DNA of 23,207 bases, taken from positions 1 through 23,207 of IMG/VR virus record IMGVR_UViG_3300032246_000222. One strand, given 5' to 3'. The first letter of the stretch is position 1; every line of letters starts with the position of its first letter. The translations under genes were made by a program, and so were the position numbers. A model generated the notes under the pieces. It did not search any database. It had not been told where the DNA came from and worked only from the letters and a program-made list of their open reading frames with translations. The DNA is from a virus. Of this stretch, positions 2,371 through 21,263 are shown in pieces.

Positions 2371-2573
2371 TACTTACGCATATTTGGTAGTGGGGCTTCT
2401 TTTTGGCTTGATTGGTGTGGGTGATGAGCCTTTTCCATAGGCAAAGCCATATGCTTGTCTAATTTAGCCTCTAAACGCTCAATACGATCTTCTGTGCGAT
2501 GCTCAGAATCTTTAACGTAATGACCTTTAGGGGACTTATGTTCTTTGCCTTCAATCTTAAAATTAGTTGCCAT
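2367..2573 (-). CDS. Small hydrophilic hypothetical protein, 68 aa
   Basis: The chosen start is ATG at 2573, which has GGAGA at a proper distance. A TTG four codons upstream lacks one. The start lies inside the last codons of the endolysin gene (11-base overlap), so it is the terminal gene of the late operon. The product is highly charged and rich in Lys, Glu and His, with a central helix (about 25-45, RTEDRIERLEAKLDKHMAL) that could form a coiled coil. A His/Pro-rich tail (HHPHQSS) follows. There is no membrane segment. No family was recognised. Position after the lysis genes could mean a minor virion or lysis-timing role, but this is unsupported. Confidence 0.6.
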   Translation of the reverse strand: MATNFKIEGKEHKSPKGHYVKDSEHRTEDRIERLEAKLDKHMALPMEKAHHPHQSSQKEAPLPNMRKY

Positions 2574-3084
2574 TTGATTCTCCAATCATTTTTAATGCGT
2601 TTTGTTTAACATCTTCTACTCGTTTTAGCCAACCTTTGCCAAATGTAGGAAACGTAGGCAAAGACTCATAAAAGCCTATTTTACGCTGACTAAACGCTTC
2701 TACAACGTCTTTAGGGTTTTTTCCGTCAATTAATTGCATTGTGCGTGGGCCTATAGTGCCATCAGGAACGCATCCAAGGCACTCTTGCAGTAATTTGACA
2801 CTACGCCCTGCACCCATGTTTACGGCAGCGTCAAACGCCATGTAATCAACTCCTATGGGCAATTGGTTTGCATAGCAAGCCATCCAATACTTAGCTTGAT
2901 ACATAGGAGCTACATCGGTAGGGGTTAACCCTTGCATTGTCTTAACTTCATGTCCAACCCATTCTTGCCAGACTTTTTTAGTGACACCTAGATTGGTTTC
3001 ACCGCCAGGATCTTTAGGATTATTTACCCAGCCGCCCTCGCTTTTAAGCACAAGCTCAAGGCATTTTTGAAAATTATTTTGCAT
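2563..3084 (-). CDS. Endolysin, GH108-type N-acetylmuramidase
   Basis: The 173-residue product matches the glycoside hydrolase 108 pattern. An N-terminal helix ends in SEGGW with the expected catalytic Glu16. Then come NNPKDPGGETNLGVT (residues 21-35, the conserved D-P-G-G-x-T-x-x-G loop) and a C-terminal region with VVEAFSQRKIGFYESL and GWLKRVEDV, which resembles the peptidoglycan-binding domain usually fused to this family. It should cleave the glycan chain of peptidoglycan between MurNAc and GlcNAc. There is no signal peptide or N-terminal anchor, so a holin is needed for access to the wall. Its start overlaps the end of the Rz-like gene by 11 bases. Length is typical for the family. Confidence 0.9.
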   Translation of the reverse strand: MQNNFQKCLELVLKSEGGWVNNPKDPGGETNLGVTKKVWQEWVGHEVKTMQGLTPTDVAPMYQAKYWMACYANQLPIGVDYMAFDAAVNMGAGRSVKLLQECLGCVPDGTIGPRTMQLIDGKNPKDVVEAFSQRKIGFYESLPTFPTFGKGWLKRVEDVKQNALKMIGESNGN

Positions 3085-3502
3085 CTAATCCTACCATTTG
3101 GTTAATCCAATCTTGTAAAGCAATTACTTGCTGGGTTGTTTGGGCGCATTGCTCGGCAACAAGTAATACGTCAACGGCTTTTCCATTAATGGTAATGGTG
3201 GAGTTGGCATTGTAGGACATTGCACCGCTACTGGTGTTGTGCAAGCTGCTATAAAAGGTATGAATGTTATCAATATTAGCTTGATAAGTTTTTTTAGTAT
3301 TGTCATTAATTATCTCCTGTTCTTTCTTGATTGCTTTATTTTCTGCAATTTGTTTTTCCGCAACAATCTTAACTTCGTCTTGGAATTGCACAAAGCGTAA
3401 ATGTTCTACATAAAAGCCAGCACCAAAGGAACTAAGAATAAGAGCAGCATAAATGTAAATTTGTCCACCAATACCGCCTAATAAGTTAAATAAAAAGCTC
3501 AT
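3074..3502 (-). CDS. Rz: Rz-like inner-membrane spanin, 142 aa
   Basis: An N-terminal hydrophobic helix (about residues 14-32, IYIYAALILSSFGAGFYVE) precedes a charged helical region (about 38-75) suited to a periplasmic coiled coil. This is the layout of an i-spanin. The call rests mainly on context. It lies directly upstream of the endolysin, and a second lipoprotein gene with Rz1 character is wholly embedded in another frame within it, the hallmark of lambda-type Rz/Rz1. The pair bridges inner and outer membranes and fuses them in the final lysis step. The start ATG overlaps the stop of the preceding small membrane gene by four bases. No direct homologue is claimed. Confidence 0.75.
   Translation of the reverse strand: MSFLFNLLGGIGGQIYIYAALILSSFGAGFYVEHLRFVQFQDEVKIVAEKQIAENKAIKKEQEIINDNTKKTYQANIDNIHTFYSSLHNTSSGAMSYNANSTITINGKAVDVLLVAEQCAQTTQQVIALQDWINQMVGLDAK
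3124..3306 (-). CDS. Rz1: Embedded Rz1-like outer-membrane spanin lipoprotein, 60 aa
   Basis: The gene is entirely inside the Rz-like gene in a different frame and starts at an ATG preceded by a strong AGGAGATAATTA site. The product has a basic N terminus (MTILKKLIK), a hydrophobic stretch and a lipobox I-A-A-C with Cys22. It then has a short proline-rich mature part (TPVAVQCPTMPTPPLPL). Lipidation plus proline richness in about 40 mature residues is typical of o-spanins. A second cysteine at about residue 30 could make the inter-subunit disulphide seen in lambda Rz1. It should sit in the outer membrane and bind the Rz-like coiled coil. The lipobox and binding site make it clear this is a real gene and not a shadow frame. 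Confidence 0.85.
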   Translation of the reverse strand: MTILKKLIKLILITFIPFIAACTTPVAVQCPTMPTPPLPLMEKPLTYYLLPSNAPKQPSK

Positions 3503-4390: not shown

Positions 4391-4936
4391 TTATGTTTTC
4401 TGTATAAATGCCAAAGCATAATAAAGTGGGTTATAAGTACCGCTAGGAGATACTGTTGTATTTGCTACAAAGCCACCTGTTGCCGCTACTGAGTAAGAAT
4501 TGCCTGCTCCTACAATAAAACGATCTCTCAGATCGGCTGTGCCATTTGAGCCATTACACAATACATAACCACTAGGAATAGAACCAATAGCGCCTGACCA
4601 CATTAGGATTGCGCCTGAAGGTACAGTAGTTCCTGTAGATGTTGCGTTTTGAATACCATATAAATTGTCATAAGTCTGAATTGTATTGTTGTTTGAATCA
4701 GTTAAAACAATCTTATAGTTATAGCCAGATGTAAACCAAATCTCTACTTGGGGTCTGCCATCAGAGCCTAATACAATAGGATTGGTGTTGGCAATTGCAC
4801 CATTAGGATCAGAATAAGTCGTAAGTGGTGTAGTAGAGCCAGCTTGATAGGTATATAGATAACCACCAGCTAAAGGCAAGCCTGTAGTAGTGAAGAATTG
4901 AAATCCATTACCAATTGGGGATAGTAAAACTGCCAT
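4391..4936 (-). CDS. Short tail fibre / collar-domain protein, 181 aa
   Basis: The N-terminal about 95 residues form the beta-rich virion-attachment domain common to many podovirus fibres (GYLYTYQAGSTTPLTTY, then YKIVLTDSNNNTIQTYDNL). After a Thr/Ser linker, residues about 105-181 carry a phage tail-collar domain: GAILMWSGAIGSIPSGYVLCNG, DLRDRFIVGAG, and the typical end PLYYALAFIQK. There is no catalytic depolymerase domain between them. It should bind the tail tip and contact the cell surface. It lies right after the ejection protein genes, the position of the P22 tailspike gene, so it is the positional counterpart of the tailspike but shortened. The main fibre cluster lies elsewhere, at 14-18 kb. 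Confidence 0.85.
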   Translation of the reverse strand: MAVLLSPIGNGFQFFTTTGLPLAGGYLYTYQAGSTTPLTTYSDPNGAIANTNPIVLGSDGRPQVEIWFTSGYNYKIVLTDSNNNTIQTYDNLYGIQNATSTGTTVPSGAILMWSGAIGSIPSGYVLCNGSNGTADLRDRFIVGAGNSYSVAATGGFVANTTVSPSGTYNPLYYALAFIQKT

Positions 4937-10003: not shown

Positions 10004-10232
10004 TGTAATAAGGCACTTTAAATGGCTTGCCGTTCACAGTTACATTAATAAATCCTACAGGATTGCTAGGTAGCGTTCCTGTGCCTTTTGTTGCTGTTCC
10101 TGCGCTTGTAAAATTGAGTAAATTCAAAAAATACTGTTGCCACGCTCTTGTGGGCATTTTGGTCTGCTCGTCAAGAACAGGGGTATTTGGATAAATATTG
10201 TTTTGAGATGTACCCCATAGCACGTTAGCCAT
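9996..10232 (-). CDS. Small virion-associated protein, 78 aa
   Basis: This short product has an N-terminal segment with NNIYPNTPVLDEQTKMPTRAWQQYFLNLL (about residues 11-39) containing a W-x-x-Y-F helix. A Gly/Thr linker and a C-terminal beta hairpin GFINVTVNGKPFKVPYYNV follow. That ending is one I associate with small podophage virion proteins and fibre termini. It starts at a TAATG junction with the gp10-like gene and overlaps the cupin-like gene by eight bases, so all three are probably translated in series. In P22 gp26 (tail needle) follows gp10, but this product is far too short and lacks the long coiled coil. A small tail-hub component is the best guess. Confidence 0.6.
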   Translation of the reverse strand: MANVLWGTSQNNIYPNTPVLDEQTKMPTRAWQQYFLNLLNFTSAGTATKGTGTLPSNPVGFINVTVNGKPFKVPYYNV

Positions 10233-12454
10233 TAATTATCCCCTTGACTAGCTTTTAAGTTAGCAGACACTATTACGCATTTTACAGGATCAGTTACAGA
10301 AACCTCAAAAATACGATCACGAGCTGTACCTAATCTGCGCCAAATCGCACGATTCTTATATTTTCCTTGTTGGCCTATTTTTGACCAATGCTCATTGCTC
10401 CAAGTTGAGCCACCATCGTTTGACCAACGTAACATTGCTTGTGGATTAGTTAAAGTATTGTTAGCTGATACTTGATTTGCAAAGCCTAAAATGTCAATTT
10501 GATTTGCACCAATAGTTAATGCGCCATTAGCAGGGATAAAATAAGCACTACCCAAATAGTTATTATTAGTATTATCTGTTTGTGTGCCACCAATACCAAC
10601 GCCCGGCTGAAACTGAATTTGTAATTCATCAAAATATTGACGTTGCAAATCTGCAACCAAATGTGGCGCTCTACGCAATCTGCGAATTTCATTGCCATTA
10701 TCTGTGTAATTATTGGCATCTAAAGAATAAATATTGCCATTTTGCCAATCGCCCACTAAATTTAGATTTTGAAAGTTAGCATGGCAATTAGAGCGATGAC
10801 GATGGTATGTATTGGTGGTATCTACCCATAACCATTTGTGCCATAGTTGAGTTGCTAAGTCATATACCCATGTAATATCTAATGTAGGAAATGAAATAAC
10901 ATAACATTCATGGCCTTCTATTTGATAAGTATAGGCAATAGCATCTGATACTACTTGATTAGCTAAAGTGTTTTCTACTGCATGGGTGCTAATTCTTTCT
11001 GGAAAATACCCATTCATTACTACAATTTCTGCTTGACCACGAGTATTTTTTGCCAAATAAGCAAAAGAATTGCCAATACGAGATATTGAAAATTTAGCAG
11101 CAATACCATGTTGAGAAGATGAGCCAGGAATACGCTGAAAAGCAAATGGGAATGTTCCTACATCTGACCAGACTTCGGAAGTTGTTTCGCCTAATAAATA
11201 GACTTGACCGTGATCTGCTACCAAAGAAACAAGATTATCAGGGCCTGTAAACTTACTTGCAAAGCTCAATCCATAGGTAATTGGACTTAATAAATTAGAA
11301 GCTGCCCATTGTTGAGTGCCAGGATAATTGTAAATAAAATAGTTATCAACAATATCAACTACGTCTGCACCTTGAAACGCACCATCTGTGCTTGGCAATA
11401 CGCTAAAGTTTAAAGCGTACATTGTTCTAGAGGCTACAGTTTGACTGTTATTAATAACATAGTTACCTGTTGATCCTGTGCCTGTGCCAAAAGTAACAGT
11501 AAGGGTTAACCCTGTGCCTGCACCATTAGTAGTTGTAGAAACAGGACTAGCAGGGACAGATGTATAAGCACCTGAAAATGTTTGAGAAAGCGTAGAAACT
11601 GCACCAGAGCCTCCAATTGCCGTAACTGTATAAGTAGCAGGACTATTGCCATAAACACCACCTGTGACCGTTATAGTGTCATTTACAGCATATCCTGTGC
11701 CAGCAGTAGCAATAGAAGTTGTAAGAATTGTGCCACTACCTAAAGCAGTAATAATTGTGCCTGACGTTACGCCTGTGCCTGTGATGGTTTGACCTGGATA
11801 TAACGTACCGCTAGTTGCTGTTACGGTTAAAGTTGTGCCTGATGTTGAAGCCGTTAAAACTGATGCAACTGCTACAGAAGTCATTGTTATTGCTGTCGAA
11901 ATAGTAACAGAATTATTAATAGTCCAGCTTGTGCCTGATCCTCCTGTAATAACAGTAGCATTAGGAACTCCAATACCAAATAAAGCTTGCCCTGTGGTTA
12001 TTGTTCCACTTGATACGCTAACAATCGTTAAAGTTGTGCCTGAAATAGTAGCATTAAAAGTTGCTGTAGCAGGGGTAGAAATACGCCATGTATAACGATA
12101 TGAGCCGTCTGTAATATAGACGTTTAAACCGTTATCTGTAATTCCTACGTTGCCTGTGCTAGTGTTTAATTGACCTATGATGGTAGGTGTAAAGTTGCTT
12201 GTTAAAATATAAACGTATGCTCCACAGACTGCTACCAAATAGCTACCACCTGATAGCGTTCTCATGCCCCTTACTTGAGCTTGAGCAGATAATAGAACTT
12301 GAGAAGTAAGACCAGGAGTAGGATATAAAGCAACAACGCCTCGTGTGCCTTGACCTTTAGCTGGATCAATTTCAGGCCTCCAATTGATACATTCTTGAGC
12401 ATCTTGATATATAGAGGGGGCTGTATAGGCTGCGCCTACGAATCCAAAGTCCAT
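10232..12454 (-). CDS. gp10-like packaged-DNA stabilisation / tail hub protein with large insertion, 740 aa
   Basis: Residues 1-130 and 346-740 fit the P22 gp10-type stabilisation protein. The N terminus has CINWRPEIDPAKG, and after the insert come GADVVDIVDNYFIYNYPGTQ, GQVYLLGETTSEVWSDVG and FPFAFQRIPGSSSQHGIAA. In P22, gp10 (472 aa) binds under gp4 and closes the head channel. Without residues about 131-345 this protein would be about 525 aa. The insert is Ser/Thr/Gly-rich beta repeat material, described separately. The rest (about 560-740) includes WVYDLATQLWHKW and an RRLRRAPHL segment. The gene shares TAATG junctions with both neighbours, the gp4-like gene upstream and the 78-aa gene downstream. 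Confidence 0.85.
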   Translation of the reverse strand: MDFGFVGAAYTAPSIYQDAQECINWRPEIDPAKGQGTRGVVALYPTPGLTSQVLLSAQAQVRGMRTLSGGSYLVAVCGAYVYILTSNFTPTIIGQLNTSTGNVGITDNGLNVYITDGSYRYTWRISTPATATFNATISGTTLTIVSVSSGTITTGQALFGIGVPNATVITGGSGTSWTINNSVTISTAITMTSVAVASVLTASTSGTTLTVTATSGTLYPGQTITGTGVTSGTIITALGSGTILTTSIATAGTGYAVNDTITVTGGVYGNSPATYTVTAIGGSGAVSTLSQTFSGAYTSVPASPVSTTTNGAGTGLTLTVTFGTGTGSTGNYVINNSQTVASRTMYALNFSVLPSTDGAFQGADVVDIVDNYFIYNYPGTQQWAASNLLSPITYGLSFASKFTGPDNLVSLVADHGQVYLLGETTSEVWSDVGTFPFAFQRIPGSSSQHGIAAKFSISRIGNSFAYLAKNTRGQAEIVVMNGYFPERISTHAVENTLANQVVSDAIAYTYQIEGHECYVISFPTLDITWVYDLATQLWHKWLWVDTTNTYHRHRSNCHANFQNLNLVGDWQNGNIYSLDANNYTDNGNEIRRLRRAPHLVADLQRQYFDELQIQFQPGVGIGGTQTDNTNNNYLGSAYFIPANGALTIGANQIDILGFANQVSANNTLTNPQAMLRWSNDGGSTWSNEHWSKIGQQGKYKNRAIWRRLGTARDRIFEVSVTDPVKCVIVSANLKASQGDN
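11420..12064 (-). repeat. Nested beta-repeat insertion inside the gp10-like gene
   Basis: Codons about 131-345 encode two copies of a phage beta module with the pattern SGTTLT(I/V)...SGT...GQ...G.GV...T.IT. Copy one spans about 135-193. Copy two begins at about 202 (STSGTTLTVTATSG) and is interrupted after GTIITALGSG (about 241). It resumes near 328 with TGNYVINNSQTVAS. The interruption (about 245-325) is another known kind of repeat, starting GTGYAVNDTITVTGG and including GSGAVSTLSQTFSGAYTS. The modules look like surface-exposed decorations. On the + strand the region reads as a spurious frame at 11835-12095. Confidence 0.7.
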
Positions 12455-15321: not shown

Positions 15322-17559
15322 TTATCCTACTAGAAGTCTGCGAGATGTACCACCACTATCTGTAATTGTTATATATCCTGCTGGGGTTAATATTCCTGCT
15401 GTATATGTGCCAAATCTAATTGTTCCTGCACCTTTTGGTGCTAATGACAAAGTAACATCTGTGTCTGAACCTTGGGCAGAAATAGCAACAACTTTGCTTG
15501 CTGTTGTAGCACCTGTCACTTGTAAATAATCAACAGCAGAAGTTGTATTAGAAACTCGCATTTGTTCTAAAGTAACATTATTTGTGTAGAAACGAATATT
15601 TCCAGTACCAGCAGATGAAGCATATAAACTACCATCAGACTGTAATCCTAGTCCTGCTACTCCACTAAAGGATAGGGTAGGAGTTCCGTAGATTGCTGTG
15701 GTGGTTGTCGGAACATAAGTATTAACTGTAGTGCCAACTTCAACTTGAGGAGCAACAATAGTGACAGTTTTTGATGTTCCAGTAAAAGAATAATTTGTAC
15801 CATCTTCTGATATTAAAAGTTGTACACCAGCCGTACTTACTGAAGCTGTTATTGATAATCTCCACCAACCACTTCCTACATTAGTAGAAGAATAAGAAGT
15901 TGGAGAACTAATAATATTTGCTGAAAATGCACCTGTTGTTAAATTAAAAAATACACCTTGTGCTGCGGCAGAAGCATAAATACCAAAATAATTAGCAGTT
16001 CCAGCTTTTGCATAAATGCTGTAAGTAAATATGTTTGGTGTTGATAAAATTTGTGAAATTTCATGGTTACCAGTTCCAGTACCAGTATTCATCAAAAATG
16101 CTGTAGTGCCGCCAAAAGGGTCAGATTGACCGCTTGTTAAAGTTACATTTGTTGCCGCCCAAGACGCATTAGTTAAATCACTACTTCTTACAAATAAATT
16201 ATTACCAGTACCTTTTAATACTTCTGTCTGTCCAGTAATAGTAGTAAATGTACCTGCGGCTGGGGTAGTTCCACCAATAACTGTGTTGTCTATTGTGCCG
16301 CCTGTGATTGCAGGAGTTATCAAAGATGCGCTTGTAGCCAAAGCTACAACTGTTCCTGAGCCTGATGTGCTATAGCTTGTTCCCCATGCGCTGCCTGTGC
16401 TATTTGGTATTCCAGAGCCAGGATAAACCATTGTGCTAGAAGCATTAATTGTGATTGCAGCAGAACCATTATAGGTTGTACCGCTACTAAATGTAATGTT
16501 TGTACCAGCAGTTAGATTAAATAAATTACTACCTAATGCTACTCCTGAGATTGTGCTATTTGACAATGCACCATTAGGAATACTAGTCAAACTTGCGCCT
16601 GATCCACTAAATACTGTTGCTGATAATGTGCCTGTATTAGGTACAAAAGATAGTTTTGTAGAGCTAGTAGTAGCAGCATTATTGCCTGTTGTTGCGCCTG
16701 ATAAAACAGGGTAATAAGTAGAAACAGAGCTTGTATTGTCAGTAATGGCTATATTTGTAGCATTTGTGGCTGTTGTTGCACTTGTCGCTGTGCTGGCGTT
16801 GCCTGTCAATGCACCTACAAAAGTTGTAGAAGTAACGCTAGTTAAGCCTGCAATGGTAGTTGCTGTGCCGCCCAAACTAATAGCAGTTGATCCTACGGTA
16901 ATACTAGAGTTAGTAAGGGCAGAGTTAGGGATGCTTGTTAAACTCGCCCCAGAGCCGCTAAAAACAGTCGCAGATAGCGTTCCGGTAGATGGGTTGTATT
17001 GATACTTAGTAGAGCTTGTATATTCTGTTGATAGACTTCCACTTGTTTGGTTAGCAAACAAAGGATAACGAGTTGCATTTGTAGTGGTGTCATCGGTAAC
17101 AGAAGCGTAAAAAGTAGGCGTTGTCCAAGAAGGGGCGCTTCCTGTCGTTGCTGTTAAAACTTGACCTGTTGTGCCGTTTGTTAAATAAGCCGTATTTCCA
17201 GAACTTGACTGATAAACAAGTGTATTTGCGCCACCAAGCTGTAAATTTGTTGCAGTTGAAGCTATGCCATTTAAAGAGCCTACAAAGCCACCATTAGCCG
17301 ATAAAACGCCTGTAGAGGGGTTAAAACTAAGCTTAGACGATGTAACGCTAAGACTTGTGACTTGACCTGTATTAACTGCTGAAAAAGTGGGATAGAACGT
17401 GCCTGATGCTGTTGTATCAATAATGCCAATACTTTCAGTAGCAGAAACAACAAAAGGCTGACCTTGACCTAGAAAAGTATTAAATGACCCATCTAAGTTA
17501 AAGTAAGCCTGAACAGGCAGAATATTCTGGTCTGTCGTTAATGCTGGCCCTATAGCCAT
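15322..17559 (-). CDS. Large tail fibre with repeats and carbohydrate-binding-like domain, 745 aa
   Basis: Order of parts: an N-terminal anchor (about 10-40, LPVQAYFNLDGSFNTFLGQG) shared with the gene upstream. Then come three related shaft units near 48-90, 155-198 and 272-315, each with YP...TG...TSS.KLSF.P.TG.LSA-like order. A Gly/Ser/Thr-rich stretch follows. A jelly-roll-like domain (about 443-615; FTYSIYAKAGTANYFGIYA, VGSGWWRLSITASV, APQVEVGTTVNTYVP) resembles carbohydrate-binding modules in fibres. The C-terminal domain (about 650-745; VDYLQVTGATTASKVVAIS, then LAPKGAGTIRFGTY and GYITITDSGGTSRRLLVG) is a common fibre end. It should be a long trimeric fibre binding surface sugar. Apparent frames on the other strand here are by-products of Ala/Thr/Val-rich codons. 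Confidence 0.88.
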   Translation of the reverse strand: MAIGPALTTDQNILPVQAYFNLDGSFNTFLGQGQPFVVSATESIGIIDTTASGTFYPTFSAVNTGQVTSLSVTSSKLSFNPSTGVLSANGGFVGSLNGIASTATNLQLGGANTLVYQSSSGNTAYLTNGTTGQVLTATTGSAPSWTTPTFYASVTDDTTTNATRYPLFANQTSGSLSTEYTSSTKYQYNPSTGTLSATVFSGSGASLTSIPNSALTNSSITVGSTAISLGGTATTIAGLTSVTSTTFVGALTGNASTATSATTATNATNIAITDNTSSVSTYYPVLSGATTGNNAATTSSTKLSFVPNTGTLSATVFSGSGASLTSIPNGALSNSTISGVALGSNLFNLTAGTNITFSSGTTYNGSAAITINASSTMVYPGSGIPNSTGSAWGTSYSTSGSGTVVALATSASLITPAITGGTIDNTVIGGTTPAAGTFTTITGQTEVLKGTGNNLFVRSSDLTNASWAATNVTLTSGQSDPFGGTTAFLMNTGTGTGNHEISQILSTPNIFTYSIYAKAGTANYFGIYASAAAQGVFFNLTTGAFSANIISSPTSYSSTNVGSGWWRLSITASVSTAGVQLLISEDGTNYSFTGTSKTVTIVAPQVEVGTTVNTYVPTTTTAIYGTPTLSFSGVAGLGLQSDGSLYASSAGTGNIRFYTNNVTLEQMRVSNTTSAVDYLQVTGATTASKVVAISAQGSDTDVTLSLAPKGAGTIRFGTYTAGILTPAGYITITDSGGTSRRLLVG
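16573..16632 (-). repeat. Fibre repeat copy 2 (codons 310-329)
   Basis: This encodes the 20 residues from GTLSATVFSG to SLTSIPN, identical in protein sequence to copy 1 at 16924-16983. The codons differ at 17 of 20 positions: 43 of 60 bases match and the longest shared run is five bases. The repeats are 117 codons apart. Confidence 0.9.
16924..16983 (-). repeat. Fibre repeat copy 1 (codons 193-212)
   Basis: This is the first copy of the perfectly conserved 20-residue segment of the large fibre. It uses more G/C-ending codons (for example GCG and ACG) than copy 2 at 16573-16632. All 17 differences are silent: 16 at third codon positions and one at the first position of a leucine codon. Confidence 0.9.
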
Positions 17560-20006: not shown

Positions 20007-21263
20007 TTAAGCTGCAACACGGCAAGCGAGTTCAGGATACAAGTTAGCCCAACCATACAGAACGTCTAAACGAGTAGGAATAGAGTCATTGTTAATGGTG
20101 TATTGACGAACTACACGCATTGACAGACCGATTTCCTTATCGCTTGCACGACCAGCAAAGTGAACACCCTCTGGCAACTCAAGATCGGCTACTGCTAGAG
20201 TAAACGCATTGCGATGCATGATGATGTTTTGTGGGGAAACAACGCCTGTGCTATTAAAGAAAGTCACAGCAGCAGTACCTGATGTTGAAGGAATAGATAC
20301 GTTTTGGAACTGACCCGCAGTAATAACAGCAGGAGATACGTTAACAGTTACAGATGAACCTGAAGCCACTGAAACAGCAGAGTTAACAACAAAGTTACGC
20401 AGCTTGTTAGAACCATAAGCTTGACGATTTTGTGGGTTAACTGCAAAAACGCCAGCGATTGTGAATGTATCGCCTTGGTTTAAGTTGATAGTACCAGTAT
20501 TGGCTGCTGTCAAAGTGATGTTAGAGCTAGAAGCCCAACCACTTGTCAAGAAACCAGTAGCTGTTGTAGTAGCAACAGAAGCAGTTACAGTTGTTGTTGA
20601 GAAGTTACCATAAGTATGAGCAACAATGTTTTGATCCATTTTCCAGTTCATACCAGCGGAATCACGACCCATCAAGCCTTTACGATACTGTTCGCCAATA
20701 GCTTCTTGTGGCACAAATAAGCCTTTCAAGCTGTCAACGATAGTAGCGGAAGTAAACGGCTCAACAATACATGATCTACGACCATCACGAGGTGCGCCTT
20801 CAGAATCAAGGTAAGCAGCAGCAGTTAGGTAAGTAATTAAACCTGTTGGAGGTGTACCGGCAGTACCAACAATGTTAGCTGTGTTGTTAGCAGCTTGCAA
20901 TGTGCCATCACGATCAATCTTGTTGGCAATAGCAGCAACAGCAGGCTTCAATACACGATCAGAGAACATATCTAAAGACAATGCCAAATCTTGTGTTGTG
21001 AACTGGGTATCAACGTGAAATTGAGTGCTGAGGGTCACAGGTACAGAAGTCTCATTGAAGTCTTCCACATTAAGGGCCGGTCCTGTAGTTCCAATGAAGC
21101 GTCCAGGTTTTCTTACGTTTACTGTGTTACCAATTTTGCCACCTACAACGGCAAACTGGTCATCATAGTTACGATCTACTTCAGATGTGAATGTTAATTC
21201 GTTTTCTAAGACCATCAACGCTTCGTTAGTGATCTTGGAAATGGTTAGCAAATTATTTGCCAT
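20007..21263 (-). CDS. Major capsid (coat) protein, P22 gp5 type, 418 aa
   Basis: The N-terminal helix NNLLTISKITNEALMVLENEL is followed by DRNYDDQFAVVGGKIGNTVNVRKPGRF (about 30-56) and FTTQDLALSLDMFSDRVLKPA (about 88-108). These are characteristic of P22-type coat proteins with the HK97 fold. An extra beta-rich stretch (about 222-330, Thr/Ser/Asn-rich with VFAVNPQNRQAYG) is where P22 coat carries its inserted (telokin-like) domain. The end IMHRNAFTLAVADLELPEG and DSIPTRLDVLYGWANL is also typical. Length is close to P22 (430 aa). About 30 bases separate it from the scaffold gene, and an AAAGGAAAT site precedes the ATG. It forms the icosahedral shell with scaffold help. Confidence 0.93.
   Translation of the reverse strand: MANNLLTISKITNEALMVLENELTFTSEVDRNYDDQFAVVGGKIGNTVNVRKPGRFIGTTGPALNVEDFNETSVPVTLSTQFHVDTQFTTQDLALSLDMFSDRVLKPAVAAIANKIDRDGTLQAANNTANIVGTAGTPPTGLITYLTAAAYLDSEGAPRDGRRSCIVEPFTSATIVDSLKGLFVPQEAIGEQYRKGLMGRDSAGMNWKMDQNIVAHTYGNFSTTTVTASVATTTATGFLTSGWASSSNITLTAANTGTINLNQGDTFTIAGVFAVNPQNRQAYGSNKLRNFVVNSAVSVASGSSVTVNVSPAVITAGQFQNVSIPSTSGTAAVTFFNSTGVVSPQNIIMHRNAFTLAVADLELPEGVHFAGRASDKEIGLSMRVVRQYTINNDSIPTRLDVLYGWANLYPELACRVAA

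Follow-up and report, generated by a model that had tools for sequence, protein, structure and literature searches.

Identical 21-residue segments in different codons in an environmental phage fibre gene: probable contributions of protein constraint, silent saturation and module exchange

INTRODUCTION

The DNA analysed here (referred to below as the window) is a stretch of 23,207 nt from a virus, positions 1 to 23,207 of IMG/VR record IMGVR_UViG_3300032246_000222, and it contains a gene for a putative phage fibre of 745 aa in which one and the same peptide occurs twice, written with largely different codons. How can a peptide be copied so exactly within a gene when the DNA that encodes it is not? 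The initial annotation of the window offered two readings, namely that the copies are old repeats held under strict constraint at the protein level, or that selection against recombination, and against the consequent loss of the 117 codons between them, has kept their codons apart. We report here a comparison of the gene with its relatives in environmental phages, from which we conclude that the two copies are very probably old and separately inherited parts of a fibre family that has undergone shuffling, and in which protein constraint, silent saturation and the exchange of modules have all played a part.

RESULTS

The relatives of the 745-aa protein in MW202520 and MW202674 are annotated as 'phage-related tail fiber protein', and its assignment as a predicted tail fibre rests on this annotation and on the neighbouring structural genes, which include a P22-type coat protein. 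Scanned as a whole, the 745-aa fibre gave no match in Pfam and none among the PHROG profiles at E 0.01. The segment that runs from repeat unit B through linker C to repeat unit D (the B-C-D segment; Table 1) matches phrog_34255, phrog_6002 (virion structural protein) and phrog_6942 (tail fiber protein) weakly to moderately; these are partial matches to this segment only, and hence we claim no membership of any of the three for the fibre. A profile search of the PDB with the same segment found no solved relative, and its AlphaFold model as a single chain was poor (pLDDT 53.9, pTM 0.21), as would be expected where one chain of a probable trimer is modelled by itself.

Profile searches identify three repeat units of 60 residues in the fibre, A (about residues 45–106), B (154–213) and D (271–330). 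Elsewhere in the window, the coat protein (PF11651), together with a head-closure Hc3-like protein (phrog_578), assigns it by predicted function to a P22-like structural module. A Glyco_hydro_108 endolysin adjoins a putative spanin pair, in which an Rz1-like ORF is nested in the frame of an Rz-like ORF; the Rz1-like ORF is short, lipoprotein-like and proline-rich, with a signal that ends in AAC. A further short ORF with a weak match to the collar domain PF07484 (below the cut-off) stops soon after the start of the domain, and is possibly a truncated tail-collar protein. GenBank holds only two phage records with similar DNA, both of them Manatee Spring podophage-like genomes.

Table 1. Parts of the putative fibre gene, and other features of the window referred to in the text
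Feature	Position	Strand	Evidence or remark
Phage fibre gene, 745 aa, holding both core copies	15322..17559	minus	ORF; annotated relatives
Unit A, residues 45–106, divergent first repeat copy	17242..17427	minus	Unit profile match at residues 49–103 of read-through ORF; own clade in trees
Unit B head, residues 154–191	16987..17100	minus	Profile match; 87% nt identity to L036 B head
Core copy 1, TGTLSATVFSGSGASLTSIPN, residues 192–212	16924..16986	minus	Translation; codon comparison
Linker C, residues 213–270, connecting B to D across the family	16750..16923	minus	Conserved in B-C-D alignment
Unit D head, residues 271–308	16636..16749	minus	Profile match; 85% nt identity to D heads of L036 and L037
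Core copy 2, identical 21 residues TGTLSATVFSGSGASLTSIPN, residues 309–329	16573..16635	minus	Start is exchange boundary
Module E, residues 330–440, after copy 2, ending in GTIDNTVIGGTTPAAGTFTT	16240..16572	minus	L001 changes to a different tip there
C-terminal tip module, residues 441–745, unrelated to L001 tip	15325..16239	minus	Comparison with L001
Endolysin (Glyco_hydro_108)	2563..3084		Adjoins putative spanin pair
Probable spanin pair, Rz-like and nested Rz1-like ORFs	3074..3502 and 3124..3306	minus
Short collar-domain-like ORF	4391..4936	minus	Weak PF07484 match, below cut-off
Head-closure Hc3-like protein	10232..12454	minus	phrog_578
P22-type coat protein	20007..21263	minus	PF11651

The peptide identity described in the initial annotation is exact: residues 193–212 and 310–329 are the same, 17 of their 20 codons differ, all silently, and the longest DNA run that they share is 5 nt. 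Its length was understated by one residue, T192/T309 (ACC/ACA) extending the identity upstream to 21 residues, which we call the core. Over this length 18 of 21 codons differ, again all silently, the codons in common being those of F, one S and P only; no common run of DNA exceeds 5 nt, and the copies start 117 codons apart. Codon positions 1 and 2 are alike in the two copies apart from one silent Leu change (CTA/TTA), and the serine codon block (AGY or TCN) is the same at 5/5 serines, for which the chance in the fibre gene is about 0.04. The 3/21 shared codons compare with about 8 expected from the codon usage of the gene or of the phage (P 0.010–0.014), and codon shuffling gave P 0.02 for the same figure; these probabilities are uncorrected, and the pair was chosen post hoc for exactly this property. 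Codons ending in G or C make up 10/21 of copy 1 and 3/21 of copy 2. Besides the near-identical L001, the nearest DNA relatives of copy 1 are in other phages, with 9/63 nt different.

A scan of IMG/VR for relatives of the fibre returned 421 related stretches, of which 80 were kept, and from these we define a B-C-D family of environmental phage fibres. The order of unit B, linker C and unit D is fixed in 69 distinct gene pairs, the unit starts lying 115–121 codons apart, and the fibre of the window has the same arrangement, with a B-type and then a D-type 60-residue unit at this spacing and linker C between them. Across phages the units cluster by position and not by gene. The closest DNA relatives of the window's units are the same-position units of other phages, not the partner in the same gene, and in both protein and nucleotide trees its A, B and D units fall in separate clades among those of other phages, from which it follows that the split between B and D predates the divergence of these phages. 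This pattern identifies B and D as ancient paralogous repeat units of the predicted fibre shaft. B units show almost no variation in the core motif FSGSGA.LT[SN]IPN, and the serine at core position 12 is encoded by TCN in 51/51 distinct cores and that at position 10 by AGY in 47/48. With separate B and D clades and a near-invariant core, the view of the copies as old repeats under strict protein-level constraint is essentially right; exchange of modules, described below, must be added to it.

Among the 51 distinct cores, where two peptides are 15–19 residues alike the proportion of codons shared at identical residues is mostly 0.36–0.46, and the silent identity expected from codon usage (0.38) is close to these values, which are those seen between cores of different phages. 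The exact 20-residue peptide was also found in other phages by a degenerate-codon scan, in 12 distinct encodings that share a mean of 8.1/20 codons; three codons or fewer are shared by 1/62 pairs of encodings of this same peptide and four or fewer by 11/62, these 62 pairs excluding the four in which copies of the window and L001 are compared with one another. In L095 and L103, which are B-C-D genes, the two cores are identical at 20/21 residues and share only 6 and 3 codons, respectively. These comparisons show that the silent positions of the core are saturated across the family. Ordinary silent saturation in all repeats of the gene family had been named at the outset as evidence against a special explanation of the pair, and saturation is, by and large, the norm in this family. 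L095 and L103 had been picked out by a degenerate DNA pattern as further exact double copies, which translation did not bear out; L114 is a candidate exact double copy by the degenerate DNA pattern alone.

When 35 B-C-D segments are aligned, a border becomes apparent where the second core begins. Where the D heads of two phages are at least 88% alike in DNA, identity falls to 38–67% at the D core in 13/17 pairs, the B cores staying at 79–100%; the D head of the window is 85% alike to those of L036 and L037, and its D core only 59% and 38%. The alignments demonstrate that the second core begins at a boundary at which related phages exchange everything downstream. The first core was examined in a mosaic test, in which the informative silent codons of the window favour L036 by 15:0 in the B head and L095 by 7:0 in the core (P=6e-6; P=1e-7 with all informative sites), a significance that is inflated by picking the closest parents, of which there are about 1200 possible pairs, but not by enough to remove it. 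A mosaic, imported origin of the first core is strongly indicated by these codons. That the two segments might have come separately from different fibres had been recognized from the start as a challenge to the readings then offered, and the homologues largely bear this out, as they indicate different DNA ancestries for the two cores.

Pure vertical descent, in which one ancient tandem duplication gave rise to B and D and the core peptide was kept with no exchange at the cores, would account for the separate clades of B and D and for the fixed B–D spacing. We consider it unlikely, because most D units of the family carry a different tail instead of the core, and near-identical D heads differ at just this place. 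Furthermore, core serine 12 at the D position is written AGC in L095 and L103 and TCA in the window, which points to more than one origin and suggests that the core reached the D position more than once. It is tempting to speculate that fibre exchange preferentially uses the core peptide itself as its joint, the structure tolerating the attachment of unrelated shaft or tip modules at this point, although we regard this as somewhat doubtful; since the joint is not conserved as DNA, conservation there would reflect viable protein joints and not a DNA signal.

The gene contains another switch, further downstream. L001 (same contig as L104) and the window are 97.9% identical in DNA over 6972 bases, ending at fibre residue 440; the two match through GTTPAAGTFTT and are unrelated from the next codon onward (16240–16300 in the window; L001 5001–6320), so that a near-identical N-terminal part is joined to an unrelated C-terminal part, as in mosaic fibres. 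About 70–85 bp round this joint are also 80–86% alike in L002, L015, L040, L093 and L127.

The proposal that selection against homologous recombination drove the codons of the copies apart, thereby guarding the 117 intervening codons, can draw on the fact that the window pair shares fewer codons than codon usage predicts (P about 0.01–0.02, as above) and has so short a longest common run. Such selection predicts that B and D should be silently less alike within a gene than between genes, and the difference is in the opposite direction: in 47 nonredundant genes silent identity is 0.428 within genes and 0.365 between them (0/5000 permutations as high, P<0.001), and shared runs are longer within genes (9.2 versus 8.0 nt, P=0.0006). 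Nor does the window gene contain fewer exact DNA repeats than versions of it with shuffled synonymous codons. Exact repeats of 9–12 nt are as frequent as in the shuffles, those of 9 nt numbering 61 as against 49 ± 10, and the longest exact repeat is 12 nt as against a shuffle mean of 12.8. Repeated cores that share 14–27 nt are tolerated in other phage genes with the motif, and a far smaller silent difference would presumably already disrupt pairing. The proposal is therefore unsupported, and we rate it as very improbable; a literature search for cases in which protein repeats diverge in their codons and so avoid recombination found nothing directly on point. The window pair, with a whole-unit silent identity of 0.229, is third lowest of the 47 genes and so lies at the margin of a distribution that is itself ordinary, either as an extreme draw or as a pair of different ancestry; its place in the low tail is probably due to its two cores coming from different lineages. 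The core motif occurs at least six times in a single fibre-like ORF of L184, where, in contrast to the diverged pair of the window, several copies have 14–17 nt of exact DNA in common.

Finally, convergence, whereby the peptide would have been reached independently in B and D from unrelated sequence, has in its favour only the codon differences themselves and can be given practically no weight, since the agreement at codon positions 1 and 2 and in the serine blocks points to common descent within a repeat family, which excludes chance identity of unrelated peptides as the initial annotation had held, and since homology of the flanking units, and hence of the whole 60-residue unit, already refutes it.

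DISCUSSION

In the explanation that we regard as highly likely, the core peptide is a motif of the B-C-D family under strong constraint, most probably kept, or re-imported, at the B and D positions, and its silent positions are saturated. Fibre modules are in addition exchanged between phages, with borders that coincide with the core. Given exchange borders at this place, the two cores of the window appear to derive from separate donor lineages that differ in their codon habits, and the occurrence of the same peptide in different codons is explained by protein constraint, saturation and module exchange, with no need for selection for codon difference as such. The constraint most probably lies in the structure of the fibre shaft, in which the core may be an element required for packing or trimerisation, and the swapped downstream part may set receptor binding.

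A more general caution is that silent divergence between the internal repeats of a gene is not to be read as selection. As the proper control, repeats of one family have to be compared between genes, and in the present case this comparison runs the opposite way. The B-C-D family, from an uncultured group of phages, also illustrates fibre exchange clearly, with its borders mapped.

Intragenic protein repeats are known across life in which units are conserved by position, the copies within a gene diverging fast and their orthologues slowly (PMC5120217). The units of the window resemble these in that each is conserved at its own position across phages and differs from its partner within the gene; the difference is that in the window fibre one stretch of 21 residues is identical at both positions, whether retained or imported. 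Mosaicism of tail fibres and tail spikes, in which proteins have fragments in common along part of their length and are unrelated elsewhere, is likewise well known (PMC10684548). The fibre described here, which shares one part with its relative and is abruptly unrelated after residue 440, differs from such mosaics in nothing essential, the repeated core at the border of a swap being a detail of the B-C-D family.
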